Source of the DNA: Bdellovibrionales bacterium RIFOXYC1_FULL_37_79
Lineage (GTDB): Bacteria > Bdellovibrionota > Bacteriovoracia > Bacteriovoracales > Bacteriovoracaceae
NCBI GenBank assembly: GCA_001770015.1
Contig: MEQB01000022.1
Coordinates: 62,001-126,000, forward strand
Reading direction: 5' to 3'
Length of the DNA stretch: 64,000 bases
Positions 4,279 to 23,080 of this stretch are shown one piece after another (position 1 is the stretch's first letter; every line of letters starts with the position of its first letter). The notes below the pieces were generated by a model. The model saw only the letters and a program-made list of their open reading frames with translations, was not told the DNA's origin and searched no databases. Both the position numbers and the translations under genes were made by a program.

Positions 4279-4279
4279 C

Positions 4280-7134: not shown

Positions 7135-8805
7135 TTAGTTTTCCAAATTCATATTTATCCGACACAAAGTCTGGGCAATGTTAAAAATATGCCCTCTAAT
7201 TTTTCGAAGCGAGATAACCATATCAGAATAAACCAGTACGGTGGAAGGTGAAATCATCTTCGATTTGGAAAGTTCCTCCAAATATTTCTCCCTCACCTCC
7301 TGGGAGATGATTTTGAGTTCCTCCGAGATTCCCGTAAAGGTGCTTAAATCCATAATCATTTGGCGCTCAAAACTATTGAGCATCAATTTGTAATAATCCC
7401 AAACCCGGTCGTAAAATTCCACAAATTCCTTTCTAATCAGTCCGGAATCATGATTATCGGTAACCAGTCGATTTTTATAAATGGCCACTTTCTCTAGGTA
7501 ATCTGTAATACTTTCCAGTTCATCAATTATTCGAGAAAACCCTTGGGCCTCAAATGACTGACCAACCGTTAATTTCTTCTCCATTATTTTACAAATATAA
7601 AAAATCAATTGATTTTGCACCACATCGGCTTCCTGCTCAATCTGTTTGATAGTGATTAATGTTTTGCTTTGATTTTTTTTATCATCAAACAGATAATGTC
7701 GGCACTGATCAAACATGAAATCAACATTCAGAGCAAACTTTTTAATTTCTTTGTAGGTAATGATCAAGGCATTGGATGGCAACATTTCATAATCACCGTT
7801 CGCAAAGTCGCTAGGATTGTCTTCTTTGTCGTCAGAAAAAGAAATATTTCTTCTAAGCAGGATTGAAAGCGGTTTTAAAAAGATCAGACTAAAAATACCA
7901 ATCAAAAAATTAATGATCAAGTACCCGGCAAATAGTTGAAGGCCAAATAATTCATAAAAATTATCCAGCGAGTGCATGCGAGGCACCACACTTTCAATTA
8001 GGCCCACCAGCTCATCTAAAAATATGATGCAAACCAAGGCTACCAGAATATGAAAAATAAAATTTGCATAGGTTACCACTTTAATCCTGGACTTAGCGCC
8101 GCCGGTATGGATGGTGCTATAGGAAAAACCAAGATTGGCACCAATCACCAGGCAAAGGGCCGTCGCCATATCCACAAAACCCGTTTTCCCCATGACCACC
8201 GCAAGCAGCAAAATTAAAATTGGTTTTTGAAACAAAACGGTGATAATTATCCCCAGAAGTAGATACAACAAAATAAACAAATAATTATAATTATTAATCA
8301 TTACACCAAACAATTCCAAATTGGACCCTAGCGGCATAATGATGCCTAAAAATAATTGAATCGACCAAAAAATAATCCCGTACCCCATGATCATACGAAA
8401 AATGCTTTTTAAATTGGTTTGATTAAACCATGAGGAAAAAAACATTCCACCTGCAATCATCAACTGGGGAAAAAAACCCAAATCAATGGACATGACGAGA
8501 ACCACAATGCTTTGCCCTAACAAAACCCCTAAAAAGACAAAATTCCCAAGTACCTGGTCAGCCGTTCTGATTGAAACATAATTGGTCAAAACCCGGTTGA
8601 AATGATTGATACTTTGAAACATGAACGAAGTACTAAACCCCGAAACAAAAGCATTCAATCTTTTTTTATTCGAGGTATTGGTGAGACGACCAAGCAAATC
8701 TCCTGATAAAAAATAAAAAGTATCCGCCACCAACCGGAGTCCCCAACACAACACTGCAAAACTTCCCATGAAGTAAGGCAATAGTTTCATCTCACTTAGC
8801 ATCAT
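7135..8805 (-). CDS. Na/phosphate cotransporter-like membrane protein with PhoU-like tail
   Basis: A 556-residue protein with about nine hydrophobic segments in residues 1-320, arranged as the two inverted repeats of the NptA/YjbB (PF02690) family. A cytoplasmic helical PhoU-like domain occupies about 350-556 (MFDQCRHYLF, IKQIEQEADVVQNQL, RIIDELESITDYLEKVA). The family normally carries QSSS/T motifs in each repeat that bind phosphate and sodium. Here the first reads FMFQSINHFNRV and the second GANLGFSYST, so the binding motifs look degenerate. Transport of another solute, or a sensor role, is possible. Two ATGs stand together at the start; GAAGGA precedes them. Confidence 0.8.
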   Translation of the reverse strand: MMLSEMKLLPYFMGSFAVLCWGLRLVADTFYFLSGDLLGRLTNTSNKKRLNAFVSGFSTSFMFQSINHFNRVLTNYVSIRTADQVLGNFVFLGVLLGQSIVVLVMSIDLGFFPQLMIAGGMFFSSWFNQTNLKSIFRMIMGYGIIFWSIQLFLGIIMPLGSNLELFGVMINNYNYLFILLYLLLGIIITVLFQKPILILLLAVVMGKTGFVDMATALCLVIGANLGFSYSTIHTGGAKSRIKVVTYANFIFHILVALVCIIFLDELVGLIESVVPRMHSLDNFYELFGLQLFAGYLIINFLIGIFSLIFLKPLSILLRRNISFSDDKEDNPSDFANGDYEMLPSNALIITYKEIKKFALNVDFMFDQCRHYLFDDKKNQSKTLITIKQIEQEADVVQNQLIFYICKIMEKKLTVGQSFEAQGFSRIIDELESITDYLEKVAIYKNRLVTDNHDSGLIRKEFVEFYDRVWDYYKLMLNSFERQMIMDLSTFTGISEELKIISQEVREKYLEELSKSKMISPSTVLVYSDMVISLRKIRGHIFNIAQTLCRINMNLEN

Positions 8806-8928
8806 TTTTAATCCTTCTATCTATACTGGTTTTTTCTTATTAACATTTCAGATAAATTAATACAAATGATAAGTTTTTTAAGATCTCTTTTGATTCTTGT
8901 GTTATCTTACTTATTCAGAAAGTTATGG

Positions 8929-8958
8929 TTGACAAGTATATTTTTATTTTGTTGAAAT
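8929..8958 (+). promoter_or_regulatory. Candidate promoter of the haem operon
   Basis: A perfect TTGACA (8929-8934) is followed after 18 bases by TGAAAT (8953-8958), a 4/6 match to the -10 consensus. The hemA ATG is at 8981 with AGGA in front of it. The -35 is convincing, the -10 weak. Confidence 0.45.
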
Positions 8959-8980
8959 CTAGGATTACGCAGGATCATAA

Positions 8981-9889
8981 ATGCTAAGTTGTCTAAATAT
9001 CTACAATATGCCCCCGGTGGAATTACCTCGAAATTTATTTGAAGGTTTTTTTACCATCACCACTTGCCAAAGAACTCTGATTGTTGGATTGGAAGACATT
9101 AAATATCCCCTTGGCCCAAACGTTATACATATCAAGGGAAGCGAGGCATACGGATACCTGCTGGAAACCATCACGGGGCTTAAAAGCCAGGTGCTAGCGG
9201 AAAACGAGATTGTCTGCCAATTCAAACATGCCTTTAAGTCTTATTTGGAATCAAGCAAAAGAGACGGTCGTCTGATCACTATTTTGGAAAAATTATTCAA
9301 AGACAACAAAGACATTCGAAGTTTTTATCTAAAAAATATCGGTCAACAATCATACACCGGAATCAGCAAAAAAATTTTGCTCCACAAATCCTCCTACCCA
9401 GAGGTTTTAATCTTGGGCTCAGGAACCTTGGCCCAGGCTTTAATTAAACTGCTTTCGAAAAAATTTAAGATATTTTTAAGTGCCCGCAACCTACAAAAAG
9501 TGGATGAATTAACCAGGCAATTTAATTTTCAACAAATTCCATGGCCAATGATCGATGAATTTAAAAAAGTACCAAATATCTTATCCACCATTGGTGCATA
9601 CAAAACCTACTTCGATGAATCCTTTTTTATGGATTGGAAAAACCTCCATCATACCAAAGGGATTTTCATCGATTTGGGTTCCCCCTCAACGATCCAAACC
9701 AATCTCATGATCAACGATGGTGTCTATAGGCTTTTTAATATTTTTAATGAGTGCAAGGCCTTGAGTCAGGAAAAAGAGCTCCAAATAATCAACGCCAAAA
9801 ATGCCATCAAAAATATCGTGGATAAAAGAATGAAATACTTCGACGAAGCCTTACTCAACCACAATAAGGACATTCTCCTTGGTATATAA
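8981..9889 (+). CDS. hemA: Glutamyl-tRNA reductase, short form
   Basis: Reduces glutamyl-tRNA to glutamate-1-semialdehyde, the first committed step of C5-pathway haem synthesis. The catalytic cysteine is Cys29 in TTCQRT (STCNRTE in the family). The NADPH-binding domain begins at about residue 138 (EVLILGSGTLAQALI). At 302 residues it is about 115 residues shorter than the usual enzyme. The N-terminal stretch before the catalytic Cys is compressed, and the spinal helix ends soon after it starts (KNAIKNIVDKRMKYF), so the C-terminal dimerisation domain is missing. It is first in a hemA-hemCD-hemL-hemE operon, which makes the assignment secure; whether it is fully active is less sure. Confidence 0.88.
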   Translation: MLSCLNIYNMPPVELPRNLFEGFFTITTCQRTLIVGLEDIKYPLGPNVIHIKGSEAYGYLLETITGLKSQVLAENEIVCQFKHAFKSYLESSKRDGRLITILEKLFKDNKDIRSFYLKNIGQQSYTGISKKILLHKSSYPEVLILGSGTLAQALIKLLSKKFKIFLSARNLQKVDELTRQFNFQQIPWPMIDEFKKVPNILSTIGAYKTYFDESFFMDWKNLHHTKGIFIDLGSPSTIQTNLMINDGVYRLFNIFNECKALSQEKELQIINAKNAIKNIVDKRMKYFDEALLNHNKDILLGI

Positions 9890-11414
9890 AATTGGAACCC
9901 GCCAGAGTTTGCTTGCCAGGACTCAAAGTGAACAGATAAAAAACATCCTGGAGGCACAAACTCCTCACTCATTTGAAATGGTTTTTATCACCACCAAAGG
10001 AGATCAAGACCAAACCACCCCCCTCTGGCAGATGAACACCCACAACGTTTTTACCAAGGAACTTGATCTTGCCTTGGCCCAGAAAACCACCGATCTCAAT
10101 ATTCATTCTTATAAAGATCTAGGCCTTGATCGCTCCCCAGATGCTATGATTGGTGCGCTCACCAAAAGATCTTACCCTCACGATGTCTTACTCATTAAAA
10201 ACCAGACCATCAGGGATTTGTTTAGTAATAACCAAAGCTCTTTAAAAATTGGAACCAGCTCGCCTCGCAGAACCACCAATCTACATCGCCACTTAAAAGA
10301 ACTTTTATCCTACGACGGCGAACTTTTGGTATCGTCGCTTAGGGGAAATGTCAATTCCCGCCTAGCAAAGCTACAAAATGGTGAGTTTGATGGCATTGTG
10401 CTGGCCCTTGCCGGGCTAGAAAGACTGGCCCTTGATCGTAGAGCAAATGAAGAACTGGCTTTATTGTTATATGACCTCAATTTTCTTATTTTACCTCTGT
10501 CTTTTTTCCCTGGAGCTGCGGCCCAAGGCACCCTGGCTATTGAAATAAGAAAATCTGATCAAGACCAACTTTTACCTATCCTTGAGTGCGTCCATGATAA
10601 AATTACGGCTTTGGAAGTAACAAAAGAAAGAGAGGCTTTTGCCAACTATGGCGGTGGCTGCCATTTACCCATAGGAATTTATGTTAAGAAATTTGAAGAT
10701 GGTTTTATTTGCTGTCAGCAAGGCATTTATAAGAACCAAGCCATTAATATTTTAAAATTAGAAATCAAAAGAATCAAACCCACCGATTCACCCTTCATCT
10801 TCGTCGGACTTGCTGACCATAATTCTCCTTCCACCAGCAAAAACCGACAAGTTATTTTCAACCAATTACTCAGCTATAAAACCATCTTGCACCAGACTCC
10901 CTTGACGGATAATACGGTTATCACCTCCCAAAACGTACTCAGTGCCATTAACTTTGCAACTTTTCATCCCACCACACTCTGGACTTCGGGAGTTAAAACC
11001 ATGCAGGCCATGTTCAAACGAAGATACTGGGTGAATGGTACCGGCGATTGGCTTGGTGAAGAAGAGTTGATTTTTTTTAAAAATTCAAAATTTATAAATC
11101 TATTTTTAAAACAGCCATCATGGTCCTACCTGACCAATGATCAATCATCATCAAGTTTGGGACAAACCATCCCAACCTATACCAGAATAAAAAATCAAAT
11201 ATCTGATGAATTCAAAGAACAAATCAAACAATGCCAGATTTTTTATTGGATGAGTTTTTACCAGTACGAAGAATACACCAGGGAATTTCCAGAGATTGCT
11301 GCCAAATGCCACTGCTGCGGCCTGGGAAAAACATATAAACACTTTAAAGAAAGAAATATTCCTGCTATACCATTTATTAATTTGAATGAGTTTTACCAAT
11401 GGTTGGATGAATAA
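9879..11414 (+). CDS. Fused porphobilinogen deaminase / uroporphyrinogen III synthase
   Basis: Residues 1 to about 305 are HemC, which joins four porphobilinogens into hydroxymethylbilane. KIGTRQSLLA, the GTSSPRR loop and Cys261 (GGGCHLPIG), the attachment site of the dipyrromethane cofactor, are present. Residues about 310-511 follow the pattern of HemD, which closes the ring: TVITSQN, LWTSGVKTMQAM, IFYWMSFYQYEEY and CCGLGKTYKHFKERN match the TS.., VG.KT and second-lobe repeats, although conservation is low. The start is TTG at 9879, inside hemA, with AAGGA 8 bases upstream; the overlap with hemA is 11 bases. A HemD domain fits the absence of a separate hemD in this operon. Confidence 0.88.
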   Translation: MVYKIGTRQSLLARTQSEQIKNILEAQTPHSFEMVFITTKGDQDQTTPLWQMNTHNVFTKELDLALAQKTTDLNIHSYKDLGLDRSPDAMIGALTKRSYPHDVLLIKNQTIRDLFSNNQSSLKIGTSSPRRTTNLHRHLKELLSYDGELLVSSLRGNVNSRLAKLQNGEFDGIVLALAGLERLALDRRANEELALLLYDLNFLILPLSFFPGAAAQGTLAIEIRKSDQDQLLPILECVHDKITALEVTKEREAFANYGGGCHLPIGIYVKKFEDGFICCQQGIYKNQAINILKLEIKRIKPTDSPFIFVGLADHNSPSTSKNRQVIFNQLLSYKTILHQTPLTDNTVITSQNVLSAINFATFHPTTLWTSGVKTMQAMFKRRYWVNGTGDWLGEEELIFFKNSKFINLFLKQPSWSYLTNDQSSSSLGQTIPTYTRIKNQISDEFKEQIKQCQIFYWMSFYQYEEYTREFPEIAAKCHCCGLGKTYKHFKERNIPAIPFINLNEFYQWLDE

Positions 11415-11429
11415 TAAAGGAGTAAACCA

Positions 11430-12701
11430 ATGTGGGAACATGTAGAGCTTTTTGACATCTCCAAAGATCTGGTACCGGGAGGAGTTCACTCACCAGTTCG
11501 CAGTTTTAAAGGACTAAAATCAACCCCCCGATTCATTGAATCTGCCGAAGGTGCTTACCTGCAAGACGTTGAAAAAAAGACCTATATTGATTTTTGCATG
11601 AGCTTTGGCCCTTTAATACTGGGTCACAAGGACGAGGATGTTAAAGAGGAAGCGATGTGTGCTCTCAACAAGGGATGGACATATGGTGCCTGTGAACCCT
11701 ACTCTTTGGAGCTGGCTGAATTTATTGTCGATAACATCCCCTTTATTGAACAAATCAGATTTGTCAATTCTGGTACCGAAGCAGTCATGACGGCGATCAG
11801 ATTAGCCAGGGCCTTCACCGAACGGGACAAAATTATCAAATTCAATGGATGCTATCATGGCCACACTGATTCCATGCTTATAAAAGCAGGGTCCGGGGTT
11901 CAAAATATTTCAGAAACTTCTTCTAAAGGCATCCCCCAATCAATTGCATGCGATACCATTGTCTTTGAACTTGGCGATGAAGAGCAAATCAAAACCTATA
12001 TGAAAAAACATGGCAAAGAGGTAGCTGCCATTATTATCGAACCACTTCCCGCCAACTGCGGATTGCTGCCACAAAAAAAAGAGTTTCTAACTTTTTTAAG
12101 AGAGGAAACTGCCAAATACAACGCACTTTTGATTTTTGATGAAGTCATTACAGGTTTTAGAATTGCTTTTGGAGGCATGAGTGCCAAGCTTGGCATTATT
12201 CCTGACTTGGTCACCTATGGCAAAATAATCGGCGGAGGATTCCCCGTGGGTGCGATCGCGGGGCCGAAAAAAATCATGCAAAATCTTGCCCCAGTTGGCA
12301 ATGTATATCAGGCCGGCACCTTGTCAGCCAATCCGGTCGCCATGGTGGCAGGGCTTAAGACGTTGCAAAAACTTGAACCAAGTGCTTACGATCAACTCAA
12401 TAAATATTCGGCCAATATTGCCACTATCCTGAGTCAGTGGTTGCAAAAATATCAAAATGGCCGCTATAAAATGTTTTCCGTGGTCCGGGAAGACTCCCTG
12501 TTTTGGATCACCCCCAAGGAACATATTACGAGGGCCTGCGATATTCCAAGCAACCTAAGTGAAGAATTCAGTCCATTATTTGAATGCATGCTGGAGCACG
12601 GAATCTATCTGGCACCCAGTGCCTACGAAGTAGGTTTTATCTCCCTAGCTCATAATAACAGCGTCTGTAATCAACTCAGTAAAAGACTTTGGAATAATTA
12701 A
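11430..12701 (+). CDS. hemL: Glutamate-1-semialdehyde 2,1-aminomutase
   Basis: PLP enzyme that moves the amino group of glutamate-1-semialdehyde to form 5-aminolevulinate. The PLP lysine is Lys265 in VTYGKIIGGGFPVGA; FDEVITGFR supplies the Asp that contacts the pyridine nitrogen. The PGGVHSPVRSF start is typical of the family. Its 423 residues are the normal length. AAGGAG precedes the ATG, and the TAA overlaps the hemE ATG by one base, so the two are probably translationally coupled. hemB (ALA dehydratase) is not in the window. Confidence 0.97.
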   Translation: MWEHVELFDISKDLVPGGVHSPVRSFKGLKSTPRFIESAEGAYLQDVEKKTYIDFCMSFGPLILGHKDEDVKEEAMCALNKGWTYGACEPYSLELAEFIVDNIPFIEQIRFVNSGTEAVMTAIRLARAFTERDKIIKFNGCYHGHTDSMLIKAGSGVQNISETSSKGIPQSIACDTIVFELGDEEQIKTYMKKHGKEVAAIIIEPLPANCGLLPQKKEFLTFLREETAKYNALLIFDEVITGFRIAFGGMSAKLGIIPDLVTYGKIIGGGFPVGAIAGPKKIMQNLAPVGNVYQAGTLSANPVAMVAGLKTLQKLEPSAYDQLNKYSANIATILSQWLQKYQNGRYKMFSVVREDSLFWITPKEHITRACDIPSNLSEEFSPLFECMLEHGIYLAPSAYEVGFISLAHNNSVCNQLSKRLWNN

Positions 12702-13726
12702 TGGGCATTTTTGAAAATAGAAAAACAAAACTTCCTCTGTGGTTCATGAGACAGGCCGGCCGGTATCATACACACTACCAAACATTTAAAAAACAATATA
12801 GTTTTGAAACATTATGCAAAACCCCCAAGCTGGCCTGTGAAGTAACACTTGGACCGGTCAATGAATTTAACTTTGATGCCGCCATTCTTTTTTCTGATAT
12901 TCTTTTTCCCTTAGAGCGACTGGGCATGGGACTTAGTTTCCATCCGGCCCCCACGCTTTCAAGTAAAATTACAAAAGACCAGGATGTTTATTCATTACAA
13001 CCAATCTCCACGCCAGAGGAATTCTATCTCTTTCAAAAAAAAGCGCTGGAACTTATCAAGGAAAAATTGTCCCCGGATAAAACCCTCATCGGTTTTGTCG
13101 GAGCTCCGTTTACTCTTTATGCTTATGCTTGCGAAGGTGGTCACTCTGGAAATCTGCTTAGCGCCAAGGCCGGATTATATAATGGTACTTTTGCAGCTTT
13201 TTCCAAACTTATTGTCAATGAACTTTTGGCCAACATGTCGGTGCAAGCCACTGCCCCCATTGATGCCATGGCCATTTTTGATACCGCTGCGGGGGAACTA
13301 TCCCTTCAAGACTATGAACGGTTTGTTATTCCCATCAATCAACAGCTCACTAAAAATTTTAAAAAAATTTTCCCGCATGTTAAACTCATTTATTATTCGA
13401 AACACACCAACCTTGCTTACCTCAAAAAAATAAATGATAACAATATCGATGTGCTGGGGATTGATTGGAGAGTAAATATCGCAGATGCGATAAACGAATT
13501 CCAGTCGCAATACTATATCCAAGGAAACATCGACCCCACCTGGCTCCTGCTTCCCCAGAATCATCTGAAACATAATCTTGATATCTACATGGACCACACT
13601 TTAAAAAAGATTAAAAATCCACAGAAGTGGATATTTGGGCTAGGTCATGGAGTTCTCAAAGAAACCCCCGAAGAAAATGTCAAATTTATAAGTCATTACA
13701 TTAAAAACTATATTTTTAATAATTAA
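12701..13726 (+). CDS. hemE: Uroporphyrinogen decarboxylase
   Basis: Decarboxylates the four acetate side chains of uroporphyrinogen III to give coproporphyrinogen III. The signature MRQAGRY at about residues 16-22 and the second signature region (FSDILFPLERLG, with the catalytic Asp) are present, as is the C-terminal GLGHGVLKETP. Length 341, normal. It is the last gene of the haem operon. A strong AT-rich hairpin lies 5 bases after its stop codon. Confidence 0.97.
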   Translation: MGIFENRKTKLPLWFMRQAGRYHTHYQTFKKQYSFETLCKTPKLACEVTLGPVNEFNFDAAILFSDILFPLERLGMGLSFHPAPTLSSKITKDQDVYSLQPISTPEEFYLFQKKALELIKEKLSPDKTLIGFVGAPFTLYAYACEGGHSGNLLSAKAGLYNGTFAAFSKLIVNELLANMSVQATAPIDAMAIFDTAAGELSLQDYERFVIPINQQLTKNFKKIFPHVKLIYYSKHTNLAYLKKINDNNIDVLGIDWRVNIADAINEFQSQYYIQGNIDPTWLLLPQNHLKHNLDIYMDHTLKKIKNPQKWIFGLGHGVLKETPEENVKFISHYIKNYIFNN

Positions 13727-13730
13727 AGTA

Positions 13731-13774
13731 AATAATTCTTAATCAAGAATTATTATTCCATTATGAGAATAATA
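13731..13774 (+). promoter_or_regulatory. Two overlapping, mutually exclusive hairpins after hemE
   Basis: AATAATTCTT (13731-13740) pairs perfectly with AAGAATTATT (13745-13754) around a 4-base loop. TATTATTC (13751-13758) also pairs with GAATAATA (13767-13774). The arms share four bases, so both cannot form at once. There is no T run after the first. They lie between hemE and the peptide gene and could end hemE transcription or act as an attenuator. In sequence this AT-rich, chance pairing is a real possibility. Confidence 0.4.
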
Positions 13775-13897
13775 CAAACGGGTATCTCCTTGTAACATAT
13801 TGATTTAAAAAACAATCTCCACTCGAAGTATTAGGCACAAGTATTGCTTTCATAAATGAAATTCCAAATAACACATTAATTTCAACAGGAGAAAAAA

Positions 13898-14011
13898 ATG
13901 AATGAAATTAAATTTGCCAACAAAGATGAATTGTTAAAAAGTTCTTCCACCGTAGAGGGTGGTTCATGCCATTGCCAGTCTGGTTCTTGTGGCGGAGGAA
14001 GAATGCTTTAA
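13898..14011 (+). CDS. Cys/Gly-rich 37-residue peptide, putative RiPP precursor
   Basis: A 37-codon gene too short for routine gene callers. CAGGAG lies 6-7 bases before the ATG, so it should be translated well. Residues 1-20 look like a leader (charged, then SSSTVE). A Gly-Gly pair at 21-22 follows, and then the tail SCHCQSGSCGGGRML with Cys24, Cys26 and Cys31. The layout of leader, GG and short Cys-rich core, directly upstream of a radical SAM/SPASM enzyme and an ABC exporter, is that of ribosomally made, post-translationally modified peptides whose cysteines are joined by thioether bonds (sactipeptides/ranthipeptides). The modification and the bioactivity are inference. It resembles no named precursor family that I know. 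Confidence 0.78.
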   Translation: MNEIKFANKDELLKSSSTVEGGSCHCQSGSCGGGRML

Positions 14012-14024
14012 CAGCACACACATG

Positions 14025-14050
14025 AATTCCCTCTCACATGAGGGGGAATT
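14025..14050 (+). promoter_or_regulatory. Intercistronic hairpin between peptide gene and radical SAM gene
   Basis: AATTCCCTCTCA (14025-14036) pairs with TGAGGGGGAATT (14039-14050), twelve complementary positions with one G-U pair; the closing pair cannot form around a 2-base loop. No T run follows, so it is not a classic terminator. It sits 13 bases after the peptide stop and 13 bases before the radical SAM ATG. Such hairpins commonly stabilise the upstream mRNA or reduce read-through, so that precursor is made in excess of enzyme. Confidence 0.6.
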
Positions 14051-14063
14051 ATGAGGATTTTAT

Positions 14064-15383
14064 ATGCAAAAAAATTGTTATGAATTGAAATGTTTTATAG
14101 AGAAAAATAAGAAAGCATTTTATTGTCCTGTTACAATGAAATTAGTCGTTACTCCCTCTAGCACCTTGTCACTTCCTGTTTTCCAGCGTGATTTTGAAGA
14201 AAATAATGCACCTAATTTGACCACCGAAAAAGAATGCAAGATTATCATCAACATGGCAAATAAATGCAATTTAAAATGCCAATATTGTTTTGCATCTCAC
14301 GGAACCTATAACCGCACGAAAGAATCATTGCTCTCTATTGAATCAGCCAGAGCGATAGTAAAAGACATAAGGGCCCATCTAAAAACTGTGCATAAGCTAA
14401 TTTTTTTTGGAGGTGAGCCTTTGCTTAATATTCAAGGGATAAATTATATATGTGAAAAATTATCAACTAAGGTTAAAAATTTTTACATAGTAACTAACGG
14501 AACCATCCTCACCGATGAGGTAATTCAAACATTAAAAAAATATAATATTTTTATCACCATCAGTTACGACGGCGTCGATAATATTAACAACTTATATCGT
14601 GGTAAAGGTACTGCTCAAAAAACCAAATTATTTATTGATGCGTGTTTAAAAGCCGAAATTAGTCCTCAAAATCTTGCAATATTAACAGTCTTCACCCCGG
14701 AACATTTAAAACAGAAAATCACAAAAACATATTTAAAAGAAGAAATCAACCGCCTATTTCCAGGGATCACCTTTATTTGCCAGGAAGTCAATAACACCTC
14801 CAATAACTTGGCAGAAGAATTTCATTTTTCCCAAGCTATGAAACAGACACTCAATGATGAGTATGAAGCCAACTTATCCAAAGCGCTAATCTTTTTGGAT
14901 GATAACGATAACGTAGATGGTTTAACATACTGGCCAGACGAGATGTTTAATATCATTAGAACATTTCTCTTCAAGGAAAGAAAAATTAATTTTTGTCCTG
15001 ATATGGGAAAACAAATGATGGCATATGATTTTGATGGTACTAGATATGTATGCCAAATGTTTTGGGGAAATGACCAGGCTAAACATCTTCATGAAGATAA
15101 CTTCAATGCGCATATAACAAATTTGAATTTAAAAGAAAATTATTCACAATGTAGTGATTGCTGGGTGCATGATTTCTGTATCTCATGTGTTAAAGGGATG
15201 GGGATCGATTCTAAAACCAATTTATGCTCTATCGATGATCGTAAATGTAAACATTTAAAAAACACCGTGGACAAAATCCTTTCCCGTTTAGCCGTTCTCT
15301 ATCACGACCAAGAGAAAACAAAAAGATTTGAAAAAAAGTTTATCAAAAATTTTGATTATCAAAATGCTACATATTTCGCATAG
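14064..15383 (+). CDS. Radical SAM/SPASM peptide-modifying enzyme
   Basis: A 439-residue protein. The radical SAM cluster motif is CNLKCQYC (Cys68, Cys72, Cys75), with FFGGEP (114-119) for SAM binding. A SPASM domain follows: Cys311, then Gly325 and Cys330 (C-x13-G-x4-C), then Cys363, Cys366, Cys372, Cys375 and Cys388, with an extra Cys395. This is very close to the seven-Cys SPASM pattern that binds two auxiliary Fe-S clusters. Residues 1-55 are an extra N-terminal part that might contact the leader; no clear RRE fold is visible by eye. SPASM enzymes next to Cys-rich peptides usually make thioether or C-C crosslinks. It lies between the peptide gene and the exporter; GAGG precedes the ATG. 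Confidence 0.9.
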   Translation: MQKNCYELKCFIEKNKKAFYCPVTMKLVVTPSSTLSLPVFQRDFEENNAPNLTTEKECKIIINMANKCNLKCQYCFASHGTYNRTKESLLSIESARAIVKDIRAHLKTVHKLIFFGGEPLLNIQGINYICEKLSTKVKNFYIVTNGTILTDEVIQTLKKYNIFITISYDGVDNINNLYRGKGTAQKTKLFIDACLKAEISPQNLAILTVFTPEHLKQKITKTYLKEEINRLFPGITFICQEVNNTSNNLAEEFHFSQAMKQTLNDEYEANLSKALIFLDDNDNVDGLTYWPDEMFNIIRTFLFKERKINFCPDMGKQMMAYDFDGTRYVCQMFWGNDQAKHLHEDNFNAHITNLNLKENYSQCSDCWVHDFCISCVKGMGIDSKTNLCSIDDRKCKHLKNTVDKILSRLAVLYHDQEKTKRFEKKFIKNFDYQNATYFA

Positions 15384-15391
15384 GAGATAGA

Positions 15392-16945
15392 ATGAAACAA
15401 TTATTAACCCAACACTTTGGAAAATACAAACTGCCTCAAATCTCAATGATTCTTGGCTCAATATTTGTGGTTGGTGTCGATTTATACTATAAAAATATGG
15501 TTAAGGTTCTGATTGACGATATTCTTATTAATAAAAAGTTTGATCAATTTTACTGGTGGGCATTTACCGCTTTGATCATTCTAACTTTAAATTACCTCTC
15601 AACATATCTGTACTATTATGTCCTCATCAAAAGATATACCCTAAAAGCCGTTTTTGATATTCGAAAAATCATGATCAAAAATCTTCTACAAAAAAAATAT
15701 CTTGATTTTACTATCCACGACAAGGGGTACTACCTAAGCAAAATCACGGAAGATGCGGAAAGAATTGGGGAGTATATCAACGTGTATTGGTATGTGATGT
15801 TTTCAAATACTATTCGATTTATCATTACAATTTCAATGCTTTTTTGGTTGAGTATAAAATTAACACTTGTTCTTTTAATGATCATGCCTGTCTACTATCT
15901 GGTTATCAGATTAAGTAGATCAAAAATTGAAAATAGCACTCTAAAAGAAAGAACGAGTGGCGATATTTTTTTATCAACGTTATCACAGGTTTTGGACTGC
16001 TTTAAAGTGGTAAAAGTATATAGAAAAGAATCATTTTTTTTTAACAAAGTAAAACTTGATTCAGACCAATGGGAAAAAGCCAATATCACTTCATTTTTAT
16101 ATGTCCAGATGTATTCGATGATCGGAAATTATATATCAAGCATTGCCCCGTTGGTGGTGCTTGGTTATGGTACCATGTTAATAATTAATGGAGATTTAAG
16201 TATTGGTAAGATGATGGCCTTTTATCTCATTATGAGTGACCTTTACATTCCAATTGACGAATTATTTCGTTTTTTTACCAACAAAAATAGTGTAATACCG
16301 GTCTTTAAAAGAAACACAGAACTACTTGCACTTTCCAATGATATAGATGAAGACGATAATATTGTAAAAGATCAAAAGGTAGAGGTCCTTGAACTTAACA
16401 ATGTCGATTTTTCTTTTGATAATCATAAAATAATCTCTAATTTCAGTAAAAAATTTGTTTGTGGAAAAATATACTGCATCACTGGGGCCAATGGTTCGGG
16501 CAAATCCACTCTGATAAATATCCTGACTGGTATCTATCATGTTGATAAAAAAGCTTACCTGCCAATCGCCAACCTGGGCCACGCCGATCAATCCGCAGGG
16601 CTCTTTCCGGCCAGTATTGATGAAAACATCTGGTTCGATGAGAACCATAATAAAAACAAATACGATGATTATATGAACATAGTTGAACTAAAACAAAAAA
16701 CTGGAAACCACTATTCAAAAGATAATTTATCTGGTGGAGAAAAACAAAGGATATCCCTAACACGAGCTTTAAATTCCAAATCATCATTTATCTTACTAGA
16801 TGAACCAACTAATCACCTTGATACCTATTATGTGGATGTTTTAAAGCAAAAAATAAAGCAACTGACAGCTGAAGGTAAAAGCATAATCTGCGTTTCACAC
16901 GACCTGGAAATGATCAAATTAGCTCACGAGGTCGTTTCACTCTGA
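15392..16945 (+). CDS. ABC exporter (fused membrane and ATPase domains), no peptidase domain
   Basis: A 517-residue half-transporter that would dimerise in the inner membrane. Residues about 15-300 hold six membrane segments. The ATPase domain has Walker A GANGSGKST (365-373), Q-loop Gln400, signature LSGGE (446-450), Walker B FILLDE (466-471) and switch His503. The N-terminus starts directly with the first membrane helix, so there is no C39 peptidase to cut at the Gly-Gly of the peptide; another protease would have to do so. The ATPase is compact, with a short helical subdomain. An AGGAG precedes the ATG, 8 bases after the radical SAM gene. Export of the modified peptide is inferred from position. 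Confidence 0.9.
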   Translation: MKQLLTQHFGKYKLPQISMILGSIFVVGVDLYYKNMVKVLIDDILINKKFDQFYWWAFTALIILTLNYLSTYLYYYVLIKRYTLKAVFDIRKIMIKNLLQKKYLDFTIHDKGYYLSKITEDAERIGEYINVYWYVMFSNTIRFIITISMLFWLSIKLTLVLLMIMPVYYLVIRLSRSKIENSTLKERTSGDIFLSTLSQVLDCFKVVKVYRKESFFFNKVKLDSDQWEKANITSFLYVQMYSMIGNYISSIAPLVVLGYGTMLIINGDLSIGKMMAFYLIMSDLYIPIDELFRFFTNKNSVIPVFKRNTELLALSNDIDEDDNIVKDQKVEVLELNNVDFSFDNHKIISNFSKKFVCGKIYCITGANGSGKSTLINILTGIYHVDKKAYLPIANLGHADQSAGLFPASIDENIWFDENHNKNKYDDYMNIVELKQKTGNHYSKDNLSGGEKQRISLTRALNSKSSFILLDEPTNHLDTYYVDVLKQKIKQLTAEGKSIICVSHDLEMIKLAHEVVSL

Positions 16946-16963
16946 TGTCTTCCCCTTAACCAA

Positions 16964-17122
16964 CTAGTTAGTTGATTCACTTTCGCTGGGACTTAAAACC
17001 TTGCAATTTTCACAGGAAGGAATTTTTTTTGTAGCATTAGTTTTTTTACTCACTTGTGCAACCACTAAAAAGCTGCTCAAAACTAATCCCACAAAAGCAA
17101 TTAACATTATAATTTTTTTCAT
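16964..17122 (-). CDS. 52-residue secreted peptide with CxNCKV motif (paralogue A)
   Basis: Translated from ATG at 17122 with GGGAG upstream. It has a Sec signal (MKKIIMLIAFVGLVLSS, probable cut after VVA at about 22), a basic linker (SKKTNATKK) and the tail CENCKVLSPSESESTN with Cys37 and Cys40. The neighbouring gene at 17149 ends in the same pattern (CxNCKV-x-x-P-x-x-S-T-N), so the two are paralogues and both are real genes despite their size. It converges on the ABC exporter gene, ending 18 bases from it. The function is unknown; the Cys pair could form a disulfide, bind metal or be modified. Confidence 0.72.
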   Translation of the reverse strand: MKKIIMLIAFVGLVLSSFLVVAQVSKKTNATKKIPSCENCKVLSPSESESTN

Positions 17123-17148
17123 AAAAACTCCCTTTCAAATCCTGAGGA

Positions 17149-17301
17149 TTAATTGGTTGATACATTTGGATTAACCACTTTACAATTTATACAATCGGGA
17201 GGACCTTTCGGAGAGTCCTGATGCAAGCGACCTTCAGCCAAGGCCCAAAAACTGCAGGAAACTGCCACCAAAAAAGCTCCTAAAATGATCAGTTTTCTCA
17301 T
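17149..17301 (-). CDS. 50-residue secreted peptide with CxNCKV motif (paralogue B)
   Basis: The ATG at 17301 is preceded by AGAGG. Residues 1-22 are a signal peptide (MRKLIILGAFLVAVSCSF, cut likely after ALA). A Pro/Gly-rich linker follows, and then CINCKVVNPNVSTN with Cys37 and Cys40. It is 26 bases upstream of its paralogue on the same strand, so the pair probably forms one transcript. The shared C-terminal motif, against divergent signal and linker, shows that the tail is the selected part. A lipoprotein reading at Cys16 (VSC) is possible but a weak match. Confidence 0.72.
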   Translation of the reverse strand: MRKLIILGAFLVAVSCSFWALAEGRLHQDSPKGPPDCINCKVVNPNVSTN

Positions 17302-17598
17302 GTGTTCCTCTCATACATAAAAATTGCTAACTCAATTAAATGGTTACTTTCACAAACTTTTTGCAATATTTTAGCCAATTCATACGCAAATTCTTACAAT
17401 CATATTATCTGGCAATCACATAATAACACTCATTGCACATTGCGTTGTCTTACAGTGTACTAGAAACTAAGGTATCATTTTGCCTCTATGCTGAAATCCT
17501 TGCGCACCTCGCAATGTCCCATTTCTTAATCCTGATCATTTTTGACATATCCCATCATTATATAGATAATGCTTTAATATTTTAACCAAGCAAGGCAC
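17302..17598. other. Divergent intergenic region
   Basis: These 297 bases separate the minus-strand secreted-peptide pair from the DUF2333 gene. No gene-like frame is visible. The only clear element is the promoter at 17542-17570 for the rightward gene. No promoter that I trust is visible for the leftward peptides. Confidence 0.6.
17542..17570 (+). promoter_or_regulatory. Sigma-70-type promoter of the DUF2333 gene
   Basis: A perfect TTGACA (17542-17547), a 17-base spacer and GATAAT (17565-17570, 5/6 match). It is followed by the ATG at 17599. This is one of the best promoter matches in the window. Confidence 0.75.
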
Positions 17599-18492
17599 AT
17601 GAAAAAAATATTGAATTTAAAAATTCTCGCTCATAAAAAAACTCTCCTAACCCTGCTCATTTTTCACTTCCTTCTTTACATTTTTTTTGGTTGGTGGAAA
17701 TCGGATATTCCAAAGTTTGAAATTAACCAAGGTGGAGCTAATGGTGCGAGTAACACGATCCATTTTGTAAAAACCCTGAACTCACTGATTCAAAATGAAC
17801 TGGAACACGGCTGGTTACCCAATGACTTTTTTCTCTCTCCCACCAAACTCTTGATTGATAATAGACCTAATTTTCAAATTGGAGTATTAACGATAATCAG
17901 ACATAGCGTCCGAGTTCTGCGTGATAATTTAAGCCGACAAAGAACCACCGATGAAATCAACCCTTTTGTCAATAAGGCTTTTTCCTATATAAGCAACGAT
18001 TACGAAAAATTACTACTGCCAAGCTTTGAAAGCCGGATGCATGAAACCATTGATCACCTGGATATTTTTTTAAAAAATTATGAGGCCAATCTAGCGAGTG
18101 CCAACTATTACCCAAGAAGTGACAACTTAATCCAGGTTTTCGATCAATATATTTCAGAACTCGGAAGTCTAAATAATAAACTACTCTCCGGTGATACCAG
18201 TTTTTTTTCCAGCGATGATTTATTTTATCTGGTCAAAGGCACCAATTATGCCTTGTACTCGGTGTTGCACGCCATCTTGAAAGATTTTAAAACTGTTTTA
18301 GAAGAAAAGAAATGTATGCCACTGATACAAGAAACCATCTCCCGGATAAAGCAAAGTGACTTCGATCCAATTATCGTGGTAAGCGGAGATAACGAAAGCT
18401 TGCTTGCTAATCATCTAATTCAATTGGCCGGCATCACCTCGGACGTAAGACAAAAACTTAAATCTTTAAATGTAATGTTGGATAAAAATTAA
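17599..18492 (+). CDS. DUF2333 family protein
   Basis: A 297-residue protein with one membrane helix near the N-terminus (about 15-33, TLLTLLIFHFLLYIFFGWW) and a large exported or periplasmic helical part. It matches the DUF2333 (COG5345) pattern known mainly from Gammaproteobacteria: HGWLPNDFFLSPTKLLIDN, PNFQIGV, the helix with LRDNLSRQRTTDEINP, and YYPRSDNL followed by SELGSLNNKLL. The function of the family is unknown. It has its own strong promoter and ends tail to tail, 17 bases from the aldehyde oxidoreductase gene. The family match is from memory of the motif order. Confidence 0.75.
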   Translation: MKKILNLKILAHKKTLLTLLIFHFLLYIFFGWWKSDIPKFEINQGGANGASNTIHFVKTLNSLIQNELEHGWLPNDFFLSPTKLLIDNRPNFQIGVLTIIRHSVRVLRDNLSRQRTTDEINPFVNKAFSYISNDYEKLLLPSFESRMHETIDHLDIFLKNYEANLASANYYPRSDNLIQVFDQYISELGSLNNKLLSGDTSFFSSDDLFYLVKGTNYALYSVLHAILKDFKTVLEEKKCMPLIQETISRIKQSDFDPIIVVSGDNESLLANHLIQLAGITSDVRQKLKSLNVMLDKN

Positions 18493-18509
18493 TTGCCATA
18501 TCCAAGTGT

Positions 18510-20237
18510 TCAGGTTCTTTCCCGAATTTCATTGTACTCATCCAACATAATCTGAAAATCTGCTCTAGATAAGGAAGCTCCTTCCTCAGTTTTTTCTTCA
18601 AGGAATCTTTTGGGGAGAGTATCCGTTTCAGGGCCAAGTCCTTCCCGATGATTAAATTTTCTCGTCATCTGGGTGATGTTGTTGGCAATTGCTTGCAGCT
18701 CTTCTTTCGTGTATTTAAAACCCATCGTCCCTTCAATCAGCATGGCAAGCTCGTTCCACAAAATAAAATCACGATAAAAGCGACAAAGAATCATGCTATC
18801 AAACAGGGCCGCCCGATCTTCATAATCAATATGTAAGAGTGCTTTTCCTTTAATTTGATTTGGACTCATTTGCCCTGATAGCTCGGCTTTATAAAAAGTT
18901 CCCCTCAGATGACATGCCCCCCTGGGAGAGGTTGCATATGACAATCCCATCCCCTTTAAAACTCGTGGATCAAAACCACCTGGTTCAAGTCCTTTTACAT
19001 GAATGGCAATATCTTCAAGCCCCAGTTTTTCGCTGGCAGGTTTAATTCCATCTGCCAGAATATCTCCAAACCCTTCTCGATAAGCAATCATCTTAAAAAG
19101 TGTGGCGATCTTTTCTGGTTGATTGTAATCAATCGCAAAATCACTTTTCCCTTTTTTATAAGCTTCGGTGGCAAAACCAGCCAGATTACCAGCACTCATG
19201 GTATCAATGCCCAGCTTGTCACACAAATCATTTAAATAGGCCACTTCTTCCAGACTATCTAATTCATTAAGCCCACCAATGGCATAGATGGTTTCAAATT
19301 CCGGTCCTTCCAGTTCAAGTCCTTGGTGCTTGCCATGAAGAACTTTGGATTTCTTCGTACACTTTAAAAAACATGGCGGGCATGCAACTGAGGAAAGTTC
19401 AAAATTTTCTTGCATATGAATCGCTGAAATATTTTTCCATTTTTCGTGGTACCCTTTGCTCCAATATCTGGTAGGAAAACATTTTTGCATATTAAGCACT
19501 TCAACCTGCATGGGGGTTCCCAGCTTTTGATATCTGGGAGTTACTGGGGATTCTTTGCCAATTTTACTAACCAACAGATTTAATTTTTTAAGAATTGCTT
19601 GATCATGCACAGGGGTTTTTTTCTTTCCGCAAAAAACCATTCCTTTAATATTTTTTGAACCAAGCACTGCCCCCATTCCGCCTCGTCCAATACTTCGGTA
19701 AATATCAGACTTGATCGCCGCACATGCCACTTGGTTTTCACCAGCTGGGCCAATCGTCATGGCACCAGATCCTGCTGGAGATTGCTCCAGCATATATTTT
19801 TCCGCCTCGTTGGTAAGCATTCCTTTGATCTTTTGAGCACTTCTAAATTCAATTTTATTTTCCTCCAAAACCAAATAAGTTAAATCCTTTGCCTTGCCTT
19901 TTAAAATAATGGCATCCACTCCCAGTCCTTTTATTTTGGGAGCAAGTTTTCCACCACAATAACTTTCCCCATATCCGTTGGTCGCCGGACTTTTAGAAAT
20001 GACTGCATACCGATTTTGTCCCCACACATTGGTAGTAGTGGCAGGCCCGGTCGCTATAATAAAAAGATTTTCAGGTGATAATGGATGAGTATTTTTTTTA
20101 AGTCTTTCGGTTAATAAATAAATACCAAGACCTTTCCCGCCAAGATATTTGCGATAAATATTTTCATCTAATTGTTCGTATTCACATTTTTGATTACTTA
20201 AATCGATGGTCAGAATTTTACCCCACATTCCCTTCAT
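18510..20237 (-). CDS. Aldehyde:ferredoxin oxidoreductase family enzyme
   Basis: A 575-residue enzyme of the tungsten (or molybdenum) bis-pyranopterin AOR family, which oxidises aldehydes to acids with a ferredoxin-type acceptor. The N-terminal domain starts as in the family (GKILTIDLSNQK, YLGGKGLGIYLL). Three ligands of the 4Fe-4S cluster are Cys286, Cys289 and Cys293 (CPPCFLKC), and a fourth is probably in DSMILCRF near residue 480. Pterin-contact regions GRGGMGAVLGSKNIKG and DTMSAGN are present. It stands alone, with no ferredoxin or cofactor genes beside it. The substrate cannot be read. An AAGGA site precedes the ATG. Confidence 0.9.
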   Translation of the reverse strand: MKGMWGKILTIDLSNQKCEYEQLDENIYRKYLGGKGLGIYLLTERLKKNTHPLSPENLFIIATGPATTTNVWGQNRYAVISKSPATNGYGESYCGGKLAPKIKGLGVDAIILKGKAKDLTYLVLEENKIEFRSAQKIKGMLTNEAEKYMLEQSPAGSGAMTIGPAGENQVACAAIKSDIYRSIGRGGMGAVLGSKNIKGMVFCGKKKTPVHDQAILKKLNLLVSKIGKESPVTPRYQKLGTPMQVEVLNMQKCFPTRYWSKGYHEKWKNISAIHMQENFELSSVACPPCFLKCTKKSKVLHGKHQGLELEGPEFETIYAIGGLNELDSLEEVAYLNDLCDKLGIDTMSAGNLAGFATEAYKKGKSDFAIDYNQPEKIATLFKMIAYREGFGDILADGIKPASEKLGLEDIAIHVKGLEPGGFDPRVLKGMGLSYATSPRGACHLRGTFYKAELSGQMSPNQIKGKALLHIDYEDRAALFDSMILCRFYRDFILWNELAMLIEGTMGFKYTKEELQAIANNITQMTRKFNHREGLGPETDTLPKRFLEEKTEEGASLSRADFQIMLDEYNEIRERT

Positions 20238-20303
20238 ATAGTCCTTCCTTTATTTGGTTTGAAAAAACTATCATAGCAAAGAGAGAATACTTCGCCAATT
20301 GGC

Positions 20304-20762
20304 CTATAAATCCTCCAACCAGATTCCAGCACCGGCTATCCAACCAAGCTTTCCACCACATTTTTTAACAAATGATGTTTTGGCGGTGGGTTTTTCGGCC
20401 CTAGGCTTTGTCCACTTATGATTCACCCATCCACCTTTGGCTGCCACTTTGGCTTTTTTATCAAACTCGACAAATAATAAAAGACCATCGGGGTCTTTAT
20501 TGTCTTTAACTGGTTGTCCGTCCAGTCTTGGTTTTGTAGGATGCACCACCATTTTAAGCTCGGAATCTTGAACCCACACATAGTTTCCATCACAAAACCT
20601 TAAAGTTTTTTTAATGAAACCCACCGCCGCTTTGCCTTCTTTTTCAATTTTAGAACACGCGTCTCCAACCGCCTTTACGGCATCCTCTTTCTTGCATTTT
20701 GTTTGAGCAAAAAGATTCATCGAACCTGCCAATAAACCAATTATAATTAACATACGGGCCAT
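20304..20762 (-). CDS. Secreted single-Cache domain protein
   Basis: A 152-residue protein with a signal peptide (cut after LFA at about 19) followed by one Cache_2-type domain. The blocks FCDGNYVWVQDSELKMVVHP, DPDGLLLFVEF and GGWVNHKWTKP are those of small ligand-binding domains found outside chemoreceptors. There is no membrane helix or signalling domain after it, so it is a free periplasmic protein, possibly a ligand-binding partner of a receptor. A paralogue is truncated at the right window edge (63747) beside an MCP gene. Four Cys may form disulfides. An AGGAG lies before the ATG. Confidence 0.82.
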   Translation of the reverse strand: MARMLIIIGLLAGSMNLFAQTKCKKEDAVKAVGDACSKIEKEGKAAVGFIKKTLRFCDGNYVWVQDSELKMVVHPTKPRLDGQPVKDNKDPDGLLLFVEFDKKAKVAAKGGWVNHKWTKPRAEKPTAKTSFVKKCGGKLGWIAGAGIWLEDL

Positions 20763-20799
20763 AATATTTCTCCTTCATCCGCAACAATGCTCAATTGTT

Positions 20800-20827
20800 A
20801 GTATAAGATTGTTACAAACAAACACAA
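20800..20827 (-). promoter_or_regulatory. Candidate promoter of the single-Cache gene
   Basis: On the minus strand TTGTGT (20827-20822), a 16-base spacer and TATACT (20805-20800). The start codon is about 40 bases downstream. Confidence 0.45.
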
Positions 20828-20894
20828 CAGGTAAAAGATGAGAAATTCTTGTCCTTATCGAATGAAACATATAAATAAAATTTAAGAATGATGC

Positions 20895-20938
20895 AATTTA
20901 TTCAGGCCACCAACCAAGTGATGGCCTGTAAATAAATT
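20895..20938 (-). terminator. Hairpin after the EF-G paralogue gene
   Basis: CAGGCCA and TGGCCTG form a 7-bp core, extended by AATTTATT/AATAAATT with a 2-base bulge, around a 12-base loop. It begins 10 bases after the stop codon of the gene at 20948. There is no clean U tract, so termination is likely but not certain. Confidence 0.5.
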
Positions 20939-20947
20939 ATTATAAGG

Positions 20948-23080
20948 TTATTTTTCCTCTTGGGATGCTGCGTATTCTTCCGCTAATTTGCTTTGAAGTT
21001 CCCCAGGAACAGTTGCATATTCGGAAAATTCAAGACTAAATGCAGCCCTACCTTGAGTAATTGACTTGAGTGAGGTGGAATATTTGTAAAGTTCTGCCAA
21101 AGGAGCCTTGGCCTTTACCACTTGAAAATTATTTTTTGAATCAATCCCCTGGATGACCGATCGGCGGCCTTGCAAATCACCCATGACATCCCCCACCAAA
21201 TCTTCTGGAACCAAGACTTCAATGCTGCAAATCGGCTCTAAAAGTTTAGGTTTCGCTTTCAAAAAAGCATCCTTGAAAGCCATTCTTCCTGCAATTTTAA
21301 ATGCCATATCATTGGAGTCAACGGGATGCATTTTGCCGTCATAAATCGCTACGGCCACATCACGAGCGTACGAGCCAGTAATTGGTCCTTCCTCCATCTT
21401 TTCCATAATACCTTTTAAAATGGATGGAATAAATCTGGCATCGATAACCCCGCCCACAATACAATTAAAAAAGCACAGTTTCCCACCCCATGGTAGTTCT
21501 TGAATGTCTTTGGCCCTAACGTTGAGACCTGCAGGGTTTGGCATATCTTCAAAATAAGGCAATACCCGCATGTGTACTTCACCAAATTGGCCGGCACCAC
21601 CAGATTGCTTTTTATGCCGATAACTGGAATTGGCCTCCATTTGAATAGTTTCACGATAAGGAATCCTGGGCTTAATATAACTGGTTTTAATTTTATCATA
21701 GTGGTCCAGCTTCCATCGGCAAAGATCAAGCTGCAATTCGCCTTGGCCTTTTACTATTAGCTGCTTTAATTCTTTAGAAAACTCCACTGTGAAAGTAGGA
21801 TCTTCTTCCGCCATTTCCCGCAATGATACCACCATTTTTTCAGAGTCATTTTTACTTTCAGCTTCGATGGCCATTTCTATTCGAGGTCCAGGGAAATTAA
21901 TCGGCGCAACTTCCAAATATGATCCTTTTTTGGCCAGAACATCATTGGTTTTGATAGATTTTAATTTAACCGCGGCACCAATATCTCCGGCCACAAGAGT
22001 TTCAACAGTCTGTCGGTTTTTTCCATCCATAACAAATATCTGGTTTAGCTTCTCACTATCATTTGACCTGATATTAACCAGCTCAGAACCGGCATTCAAT
22101 TTTCCCGATAAAACTTTAAAATAGGATACCTTGCCAAGGAACGGATCAATCAGGGTTTTATAGATAAACAGTACGGTTTCGTTACTATCACTGCAAACAA
22201 TATCTTTGCCATCCTTGGTTTTTTCTGGCGGCAGTTCAAAGGTTGAAGGAGTAGTGGTAGCAATAAACTCAATTATTCGCTCAACTCCCATATTGTATTT
22301 GGCCGAAGCACAAAAGATCGGGTAAAGCTCATTATTTAATATCCCGGCCTTTAATCCATTGATAATTTGCTCTGGACTCAATGTCCCTTCGGCAAAATAA
22401 ATTTCCATCAATTTTTCATCAGACTCGGCAACCTTCTCGATAAATTCATTTCGTAACTCTTCGGCTTGATCTTTCAAATCAGCTGGGATCTCTTTTTTTT
22501 CTGGCTTGGCCCCACCTTGGGTATAAACATACATGCACATTTCAACCAAATCGATAATCGAATTGAAATTTTCCCCTTCATTCACCGGAAATTGAAAAAC
22601 CGTTGCTTTTAGCCCAAATCTTTCTTTTAGGGTTTTTACGGCATGATCAAACTGGCTTTTTGAATGATCCAATTGATTCATAACAAAAGCAAGTGGGCGA
22701 CCTAGTCCTTCAATTTTATTCCAAAGAACTTCATGAGCCACTTCAAGCCCGTGTTGGGCATTTACGGTCATTACACAAGTATCCATCACTCGAAGAGACG
22801 AAATGACCTCTCCCACAAAATCATCAATACCAGGTGCATCCATAATATTGATCTTATAATCTTTCCAAACTGTGTGAAGAGATGTGGCACAAACAGAATT
22901 TCCTCTTTCGTGTTCAATATCGTGGTAATCTGATACAGTATTTTTTTCTTCAACACTTCCGCATCTTTTAATTAAACCGCCATGAAAATGCATAGTTTCT
23001 GCAAGCGTGGTTTTACCTGACTTTGGAGGGCCAATTAAAATGACATTTTTGATAAACTTATTGTCGCTATAAACCTTCAT
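20948..23080 (-). CDS. Elongation factor G-like GTPase (FusA2 type)
   Basis: A 710-residue protein with the five-domain EF-G layout: G domain 1 to about 285, domain II (LFIYKTLIDPFLGKVSYFKVLSG), domains III-V (EEDPTFTVEFSKE, ARDVAVAIYDGKMHPVDSNDMAF, EPICSIEVLVPEDLVGDVMGDLQGRR). P-loop GPPKSGKTT (17-25). The switch II motif is DAPGIDDF (81-88), so the catalytic His of DTPGHVDF is Ile85. The G4 motif is NQLD (135-138) instead of NKMD. Other FusA2-type proteins, such as Thermus EF-G-2, also lack this His. It is therefore an accessory EF-G and not the main translocase. Stand-alone gene with its own upstream region. Confidence 0.88.
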   Translation of the reverse strand: MKVYSDNKFIKNVILIGPPKSGKTTLAETMHFHGGLIKRCGSVEEKNTVSDYHDIEHERGNSVCATSLHTVWKDYKINIMDAPGIDDFVGEVISSLRVMDTCVMTVNAQHGLEVAHEVLWNKIEGLGRPLAFVMNQLDHSKSQFDHAVKTLKERFGLKATVFQFPVNEGENFNSIIDLVEMCMYVYTQGGAKPEKKEIPADLKDQAEELRNEFIEKVAESDEKLMEIYFAEGTLSPEQIINGLKAGILNNELYPIFCASAKYNMGVERIIEFIATTTPSTFELPPEKTKDGKDIVCSDSNETVLFIYKTLIDPFLGKVSYFKVLSGKLNAGSELVNIRSNDSEKLNQIFVMDGKNRQTVETLVAGDIGAAVKLKSIKTNDVLAKKGSYLEVAPINFPGPRIEMAIEAESKNDSEKMVVSLREMAEEDPTFTVEFSKELKQLIVKGQGELQLDLCRWKLDHYDKIKTSYIKPRIPYRETIQMEANSSYRHKKQSGGAGQFGEVHMRVLPYFEDMPNPAGLNVRAKDIQELPWGGKLCFFNCIVGGVIDARFIPSILKGIMEKMEEGPITGSYARDVAVAIYDGKMHPVDSNDMAFKIAGRMAFKDAFLKAKPKLLEPICSIEVLVPEDLVGDVMGDLQGRRSVIQGIDSKNNFQVVKAKAPLAELYKYSTSLKSITQGRAAFSLEFSEYATVPGELQSKLAEEYAASQEEK

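Follow-up and report, generated by a model that had tools for sequence, protein, structure and literature searches.

Does the three-gene cassette that follows hemE in the genome of Bdellovibrionales bacterium RIFOXYC1_FULL_37_79 specify a new type of peptide modification system, or a divergent version of a known one? The window analysed here is a stretch of 64,000 nucleotides (contig MEQB01000022.1, positions 62,001 to 126,000), in which the original prediction, made from the sequence alone, had described a small Cys/Gly-rich precursor gene, a radical SAM/SPASM enzyme and an ABC exporter. We consider it probable that these genes form a divergent sactipeptide system of the streptosactin (GGG) lineage on a horizontally acquired cassette. 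This reading draws on four features of the sequence: the gene order, the homology of the first two products to GggA and GggB, the intact cofactor motifs and the position of the insert, which occupies a site left vacant in a genome of the same genus. In the literature consulted, streptosactin-type sactipeptides appear in streptococci only, as putative fratricidal agents tied to Rgg/SHP quorum sensing; if the reading is true, a diverged copy in the Halobacteriovorax family (Bdellovibrionota) places this chemistry on both sides of the Gram-positive/Gram-negative divide.

All three genes lie on the same strand in the order precursor, maturase and exporter (Table 1), as had been described, and this order is consistent with that of thioether-crosslinked RiPP loci. 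The precursor, MNEIKFANKDELLKSSSTVEGGSCHCQSGSCGGGRML, is encoded by 37 codons, with the strong ribosome-binding site AGGAG just 5' of the ATG at 13898. The maturase gene begins 52 nt further on (gap 14012-14063), and the exporter gene begins 8 nt past the maturase stop.

Table 1. Features of the cassette and its immediate surroundings (coordinates are those of the window)
Feature	Coordinates	Strand	Basis
Whole inserted cassette	13727..16964	.	3,238 bp; 33.0% GC vs ~39% in flanks
Perfect 10-bp inverted repeat, AATAATTCTT-AATC-AAGAATTATT	13731..13754	+	Just 3' of hemE; fold -6.8 kcal/mol
GggA-like precursor peptide, 37 aa	13898..14011	+	GggA similarity (BLASTP, profile, shuffle test); single copy in genome
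Stable RNA hairpin between precursor and maturase genes	14021..14053	+	-17.8 kcal/mol, z = -4.55
GggB-like radical SAM/SPASM maturase, 439 aa	14064..15383	+	NF050038 (GggB) best NCBIfam match; GggB clade 100/99
ABC exporter half-transporter, 517 aa, GggC position	15392..16945	+	Pfam ABC_membrane + ABC_tran; no C39

The maturase has an intact radical SAM motif (CNLKCQYC) and seven SPASM cysteines (C311-x13-G325-x4-C330, C363-x2-C366-x5-C372-x2-C375 and C395), and the nearly perfect SPASM pattern claimed for it was found. The final spacing, C-x2-C, is the only oddity of this pattern, that spacing usually being C-x3-C, and genuine GggB is the same: all seven cysteines and the C-x2-CW-x4-C-x2-C spacing are common to both enzymes. 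Comparison with subfamily profiles, a check suggested at the outset, gave NF050038 (GggB) as the best among 18,950 NCBIfam models (6.3e-50, 170 bits), with an alignment along the whole length (maturase residues 36-428, model positions 20-393 of 398); the PapB, nif11, CcpM and SCIFF models scored 67-101 bits, the next-best match after GggB thus reaching at most ~101. Pairwise, the maturase is 29% identical to a real GggB over 380 aligned columns (E = 3e-43), and 29-30% identical across the GggBs. A GggB-only profile gave 165 bits over positions 20-393, against 115 bits, chiefly from the radical SAM core, for the best other maturase among the fetched loci. In a maximum-likelihood tree of 26 maturases, the window enzyme and five GggBs form a clade (support 100/99) on a shared stem of 1.0. 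The branch leading to the window enzyme is long (1.73), which argues for an old divergence and against a recent copy from Streptococcus. Only 15 GggB-specific residues occur in the window maturase, and any other maturase has at most nine. An AlphaFold model of the enzyme was weak (mean pLDDT 54.5, from a six-row alignment) and is the basis of no conclusion.

It is very improbable that the cassette is an ordinary SCIFF or PapB-type ranthipeptide system whose GggB match expresses nothing beyond general radical SAM/SPASM similarity. Both models do match the maturase (PapB at 98 bits and 6e-28, below its cut-off of 340; SCIFF at 67 bits and 1e-18, below its cut-off of 425), but GggB leads PapB by 72 bits and is matched in the C-terminal half too, and the clade with GggB is firmly supported. 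In the comparison scan, moreover, the four other maturases all scored highest with PapB and not with GggB, and the precursor has a GggA-like sequence instead of the six-Cys SCIFF core.

The precursor is the point on which the original prediction did not hold. It had been described as dissimilar to SCIFF, subtilosin and other familiar sactipeptide precursors, but a real streptococcal GggA can be aligned with it along the full length (BLASTP, 14/35 identical, 40%, E = 4e-6), and the similarity spans both the leader, where M-x-x-[IL]-K...[DE]ELL is common to the two, and the C-terminal S-C-G-G-G-R. Of the window's 1,838 frames it was the top hit for a profile of six streptococcal GggA sequences (E = 0.0066; runner-up 0.3), with a score of 13.6 bits against a maximum of 10.3 in 5,000 composition-preserving shuffles. 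Its sole NCBIfam match, not significant at 11 bits (E 0.26), was to the streptosactin model, aligned over positions 1-35 of 35. One locus of this type is known, and conservation was judged against the streptococcal GggAs, with which leader and core are both kept; a small Cys/Gly-rich frame also precedes the maturase gene at each of the nine streptococcal GggB loci whose 5' sequence could be read. Neither of the two outcomes that the original prediction had named as counter-evidence was thus seen.

The predicted core comprises approximately residues 22-37, GSCHCQSGSCGGGRML. Ser28, Cys31, Gly34 and Arg35 have identical numbering in the window precursor and in the S. thermophilus-type 35-residue GggA (L137), whose own core, NASCGPSHSCGGGR, is the same as the mature streptosactin of S. 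thermophilus JIM8232, a product measured at -4.03 Da by mass spectrometry (PMC12445099). Of the GggA core pattern C-x2-S-x2-C-x2-G-R, the part S28-x2-C31-x2-G34-R35 is present, and the first cysteine has no exact equivalent, C24 and C26 standing in place of C25. The first ring region accordingly reads C-HCQ-S (S-C-H-C-Q-S) in the window precursor vs C-GP-S in GggA, with one extra Cys.

The exporter, which follows the maturase as had been described, has intact Walker A (GANGSGKST), LSGGE and Walker B motifs. It is 27% identical to GggC over 345 aa (E = 2e-20) and scores 91 bits on the NCBIfam GggC model; several other ABC families score above GggC. A C39 peptidase was found neither in the exporter (Pfam) nor by a search of the genome, the control being positive in eight of 14 genomes, and the notion that the Gly-Gly is the cleavage signal of a C39 peptidase transporter is therefore left without support. 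A gene for a leader-removing protease is absent from the cassette. All three products fall far below the NCBIfam cut-offs (maturase, 170 of 650 bits for GggB; precursor, 11 of 50; exporter, 91 of 750 for GggC), which makes the earlier expectation that routine annotation would miss this system a plausible one, and the current GggA and GggB models are too narrow for detecting such relatives.

The limits of the insert, at about 13727-16964, follow from comparison with the sole same-genus genome available for it (G001). Window positions 8243-13726 (79.6% identity) and 16965-26499 (83.8%) are matched by positions 3-5483 and 5481-15000 in the corresponding locus (L158), where the flanks are contiguous, joining within 3 bp; the site there is cassette-free, and neither neighbouring gene is broken by the insert. 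These neighbours are hemE on one side and a small gene on the other. Genes resembling hemA, hemC, hemL and hemE lie 5' of the cassette, and 171 bp of intergenic DNA separate hemE from the precursor gene; on the 3' side are two small secreted peptides (opposite strand), a DUF2333 protein, an aldehyde ferredoxin oxidoreductase, a Cache-domain protein and an EF-G-like protein. The two secreted peptides, which contain CxxC (16964-17301), had been considered as members of the cluster and were ruled out, because the sister genome, which lacks the cassette, has both of them. In a GC scan the cassette was approximately the lowest-GC 3.2-kb stretch in the window (33.0% vs a window mean of 38.4%). A mobile-element signature intrinsic to the cassette was sought at both junctions, and none was found.

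When 369 genomes of the phylum were searched with the GggB model (E <= 1e-25), the host genome was the sole positive. Because the site is cassette-free in the same-genus genome and a GggB-like enzyme occurs in only one of these 369 genomes, horizontal acquisition by insertion is a likelier history than deletion from the sister genome. The same rarity, together with the foreign composition of the insert, would also suit a decayed or unexpressed remnant of a horizontally acquired system. We regard this as improbable, since the three frames are intact and have good ribosome-binding sites, the radical SAM, SPASM, Walker A, LSGGE and Walker B motifs are all preserved, and a strong hairpin stands between the first two genes.

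Beyond the phylum, the search covered 157 Streptococcus genomes, 348 genomes of the phylum of Streptococcus, 345 Bacteroidota, collections of plasmid, phage and viral sequences and one GTDB pattern scan; as this coverage is partial, we do not claim that the system is restricted to streptococci and the present host. No relative was found by a maturase-only search of the genome contigs or by a search of the viral contigs with a pairwise alignment, the plasmid and phage collections held no GggB-like enzyme, and generic radical SAM pattern searches returned, among the matches listed, unrelated maturases only. The pattern scan, which demanded Q, E or R ahead of YCYAxGGN, was non-exhaustive. The Streptococcus genomes were located with a bait, namely a synthetic alignment containing YCYAxGGN (the preferences of the GggB model, taken from single-residue fragment variants) and a streptide precursor tag; the rows of this bait were artificial, and it was used for locating genomes only and entered no comparison. 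These genomes yielded nine gggAB loci above the GggB model cut-off and one truncated gggB. Other maturases tried as relatives (from Oscillospiraceae, Lachnospiraceae, Proteiniphilum, Methanobrevibacter and Aminicenantes; L108-L114 and L161-L165) fell outside the GggB clade, and in the stretches examined near them no GggA-like frame was significant (best E 0.43).

Two non-coding elements accompany the genes. Position 13731, where the original prediction began the system, is intergenic and coincides with the perfect inverted repeat after hemE. At up to three mismatches this repeat has no second match in the window (0.03 expected), and it could serve as an operator or terminator. For the hairpin between the precursor and maturase genes, equal stability was reached in none of 200 shuffles; it is a candidate transcript stabiliser or attenuator and probably holds precursor expression higher than maturase expression. 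No Rgg regulator or SHP gene is present in the cassette or adjoining it, the 5' neighbour being hemE and its intergenic DNA, and in the absence of an Rgg gene the control of the cassette must differ from that of the Streptococcus locus.

Read as a streptosactin-lineage system, the cassette would work as follows. Once the 37-residue precursor is made, its M-x-x-[IL]-K...[DE]ELL leader would direct the GggB-like enzyme, which would first link Cys31 to the Gly34 alpha-carbon; Cys24 or Cys26 would then be the donor of another S-C-alpha bond, with its acceptor at Ser28 or close to it. The model for these steps is streptosactin, whose two unnested bonds, Cys25-Ser28 and Cys31-Gly34, are formed from the C- to the N-terminus (PMC8172795). 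The ABC half-transporter would export the product, and a host protease encoded outside the cassette would cut the leader near Gly21-Gly22 (residues 21-22). The peptide probably acts as an antibacterial of narrow spectrum or inhibits its own producer; streptosactin itself causes fratricidal growth inhibition of S. thermophilus (PMC13361665).

Cys24, Cys26 and Cys31 had all been named as modification sites. The streptosactin alignment upholds Cys31 (to Gly34); Cys24 and Cys26 lie on either side of where GggA has its Cys25 and are alternative candidates. With the first ring altered and one Cys in excess, the crosslinks of streptosactin are not simply transferable to this precursor. Candidate pairs for the second bond, as judged from spacing, are Cys24-Gln27 (ring size unchanged), Cys24-Ser28 (ring enlarged by one residue) and Cys26-Ser28 (one intervening residue). 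The replacement of Cys25 by Cys24 and Cys26 is the chief biochemical novelty of the cassette and, if the reading is true, this natural variant offers a direct test of how GggB-type enzymes select their donor and acceptor residues.

The altered ring is also what gives weight to a rather unlikely alternative, in which the cassette shares its ancestry with GggAB and performs another chemistry (beta or gamma thioethers, one bond only, or three by way of the extra Cys), its product being no analogue of streptosactin. Cys24-His-Cys26 in place of a single cysteine, a maturase identity of only 29%, the frequency with which SPASM maturases switch bond type and the one-residue rings of the streptococcal QMP family (PMC13361665), a spacing that Cys26-Gln-Ser28 would suit, all point in this direction; S-C-G-G-G-R and Ser28, on the other hand, stand at unchanged positions, and the PapB (ranthipeptide) and SCIFF models fall far below GggB. 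We advance only tentatively the further idea that the additional cysteine of the C-H-C segment gives bonds of a non-streptosactin kind, be it as a tight Cys26-Ser28 ring, through a third thioether or in a mixed topology, and that the cassette belongs to a streptosactin-like family not recognised before, spread horizontally among Gram-negative predatory bacteria, with a peptide that acts on kin or prey.

Of the known systems, PapB-type ranthipeptide and SCIFF maturases resemble the window enzyme in their radical SAM/SPASM peptide thioether chemistry, and differ in that their models score at least 72 bits under GggB on it, in their substrates and in their separate placement in the tree. The QMP family (suisactin) of Streptococcus suis, with two sactionine bridges and one intervening residue per ring (PMC13361665), is likened here by its published description, and its ring spacing is the one that Cys26-Gln-Ser28 would suit. 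The closest comparison is with the GGG family of RaS-RiPPs, encoded by gggABC in S. thermophilus and other streptococci according to the accounts of Bushin et al. 2020 (doi 10.1021/jacs.0c05546) given in PMC8172795 and PMC13361665. Unlike streptosactin, the window precursor has an extra Cys, a shifted first donor and two additional C-terminal residues (Met-Leu); the maturase is only 29-30% identical, the host belongs to the Bdellovibrionota, the exporter is not clearly a GggC, and the Rgg gene found 5' of a Streptococcus locus (L132:1853-2743, read by eye) has no Rgg/SHP counterpart in the cassette. Like streptosactin, the system has the precursor-maturase-ABC transporter order and gene sizes of that same Streptococcus locus, a precursor within the 34-37 aa range with an M-x-x-[LI]-K...[DE]ELL leader and a C-terminal S-C-G-G-G-R, the same numbering of Ser28, Cys31 and Gly34, and a maturase that shares the clade and the SPASM spacing of GggB.

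The cassette, comprising a GggA-like precursor, a GggB-like radical SAM/SPASM maturase and an ABC exporter, is flanked downstream by two paralogous small peptide genes, the products of which share 40% identity in pairwise comparison, have a signal-like N-terminus and carry a C-x2-C-K-V motif close to the C-terminus. Neither matched a family in NCBIfam and Pfam model scans, and both genes are kept in the same-genus genome that lacks the cassette. Upstream lies a gene for a HemC-like protein; because its porphobilinogen deaminase match is confined to the N-terminal part, the C-terminal half may be a diverged, fused HemD.

Features near the cassette and at loci of other radical SAM/SPASM maturases (L109, L165)
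Feature	Position	Strand	Product (aa)	Remarks
HemC-like protein	9879-11414	+	511	
Small peptide gene	16964-17122	-	50-52	
Small peptide gene	17149-17301	-	50-52	
Cys/Gly-rich peptide	L109:7087-7215		42	TCGVGCKGSGCSGSCG; good ribosome-binding site
Leader-like small peptides, repeated	L165:27-176 and 259-357			Cores GCG...CGGC

Among Bdellovibrionota loci L004-L022, belonging for the most part to family f3 (probably Bdellovibrio and its kin), almost all f3 genomes encode a single, conserved enzyme of the radical SAM/SPASM type that carries CNLKCTYCAAGGDGTY as its motif; its closest model is that of the ranthipeptide maturase PapB, with a score below the cut-off of that model. The L109 peptide is encoded directly 3' of the maturase gene in a Lachnospiraceae metagenome-assembled genome. 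The L165 peptides, of a Bacillota genome, are encoded 5' of theirs, and together with it look like a further cluster for a sactipeptide or related RiPP.
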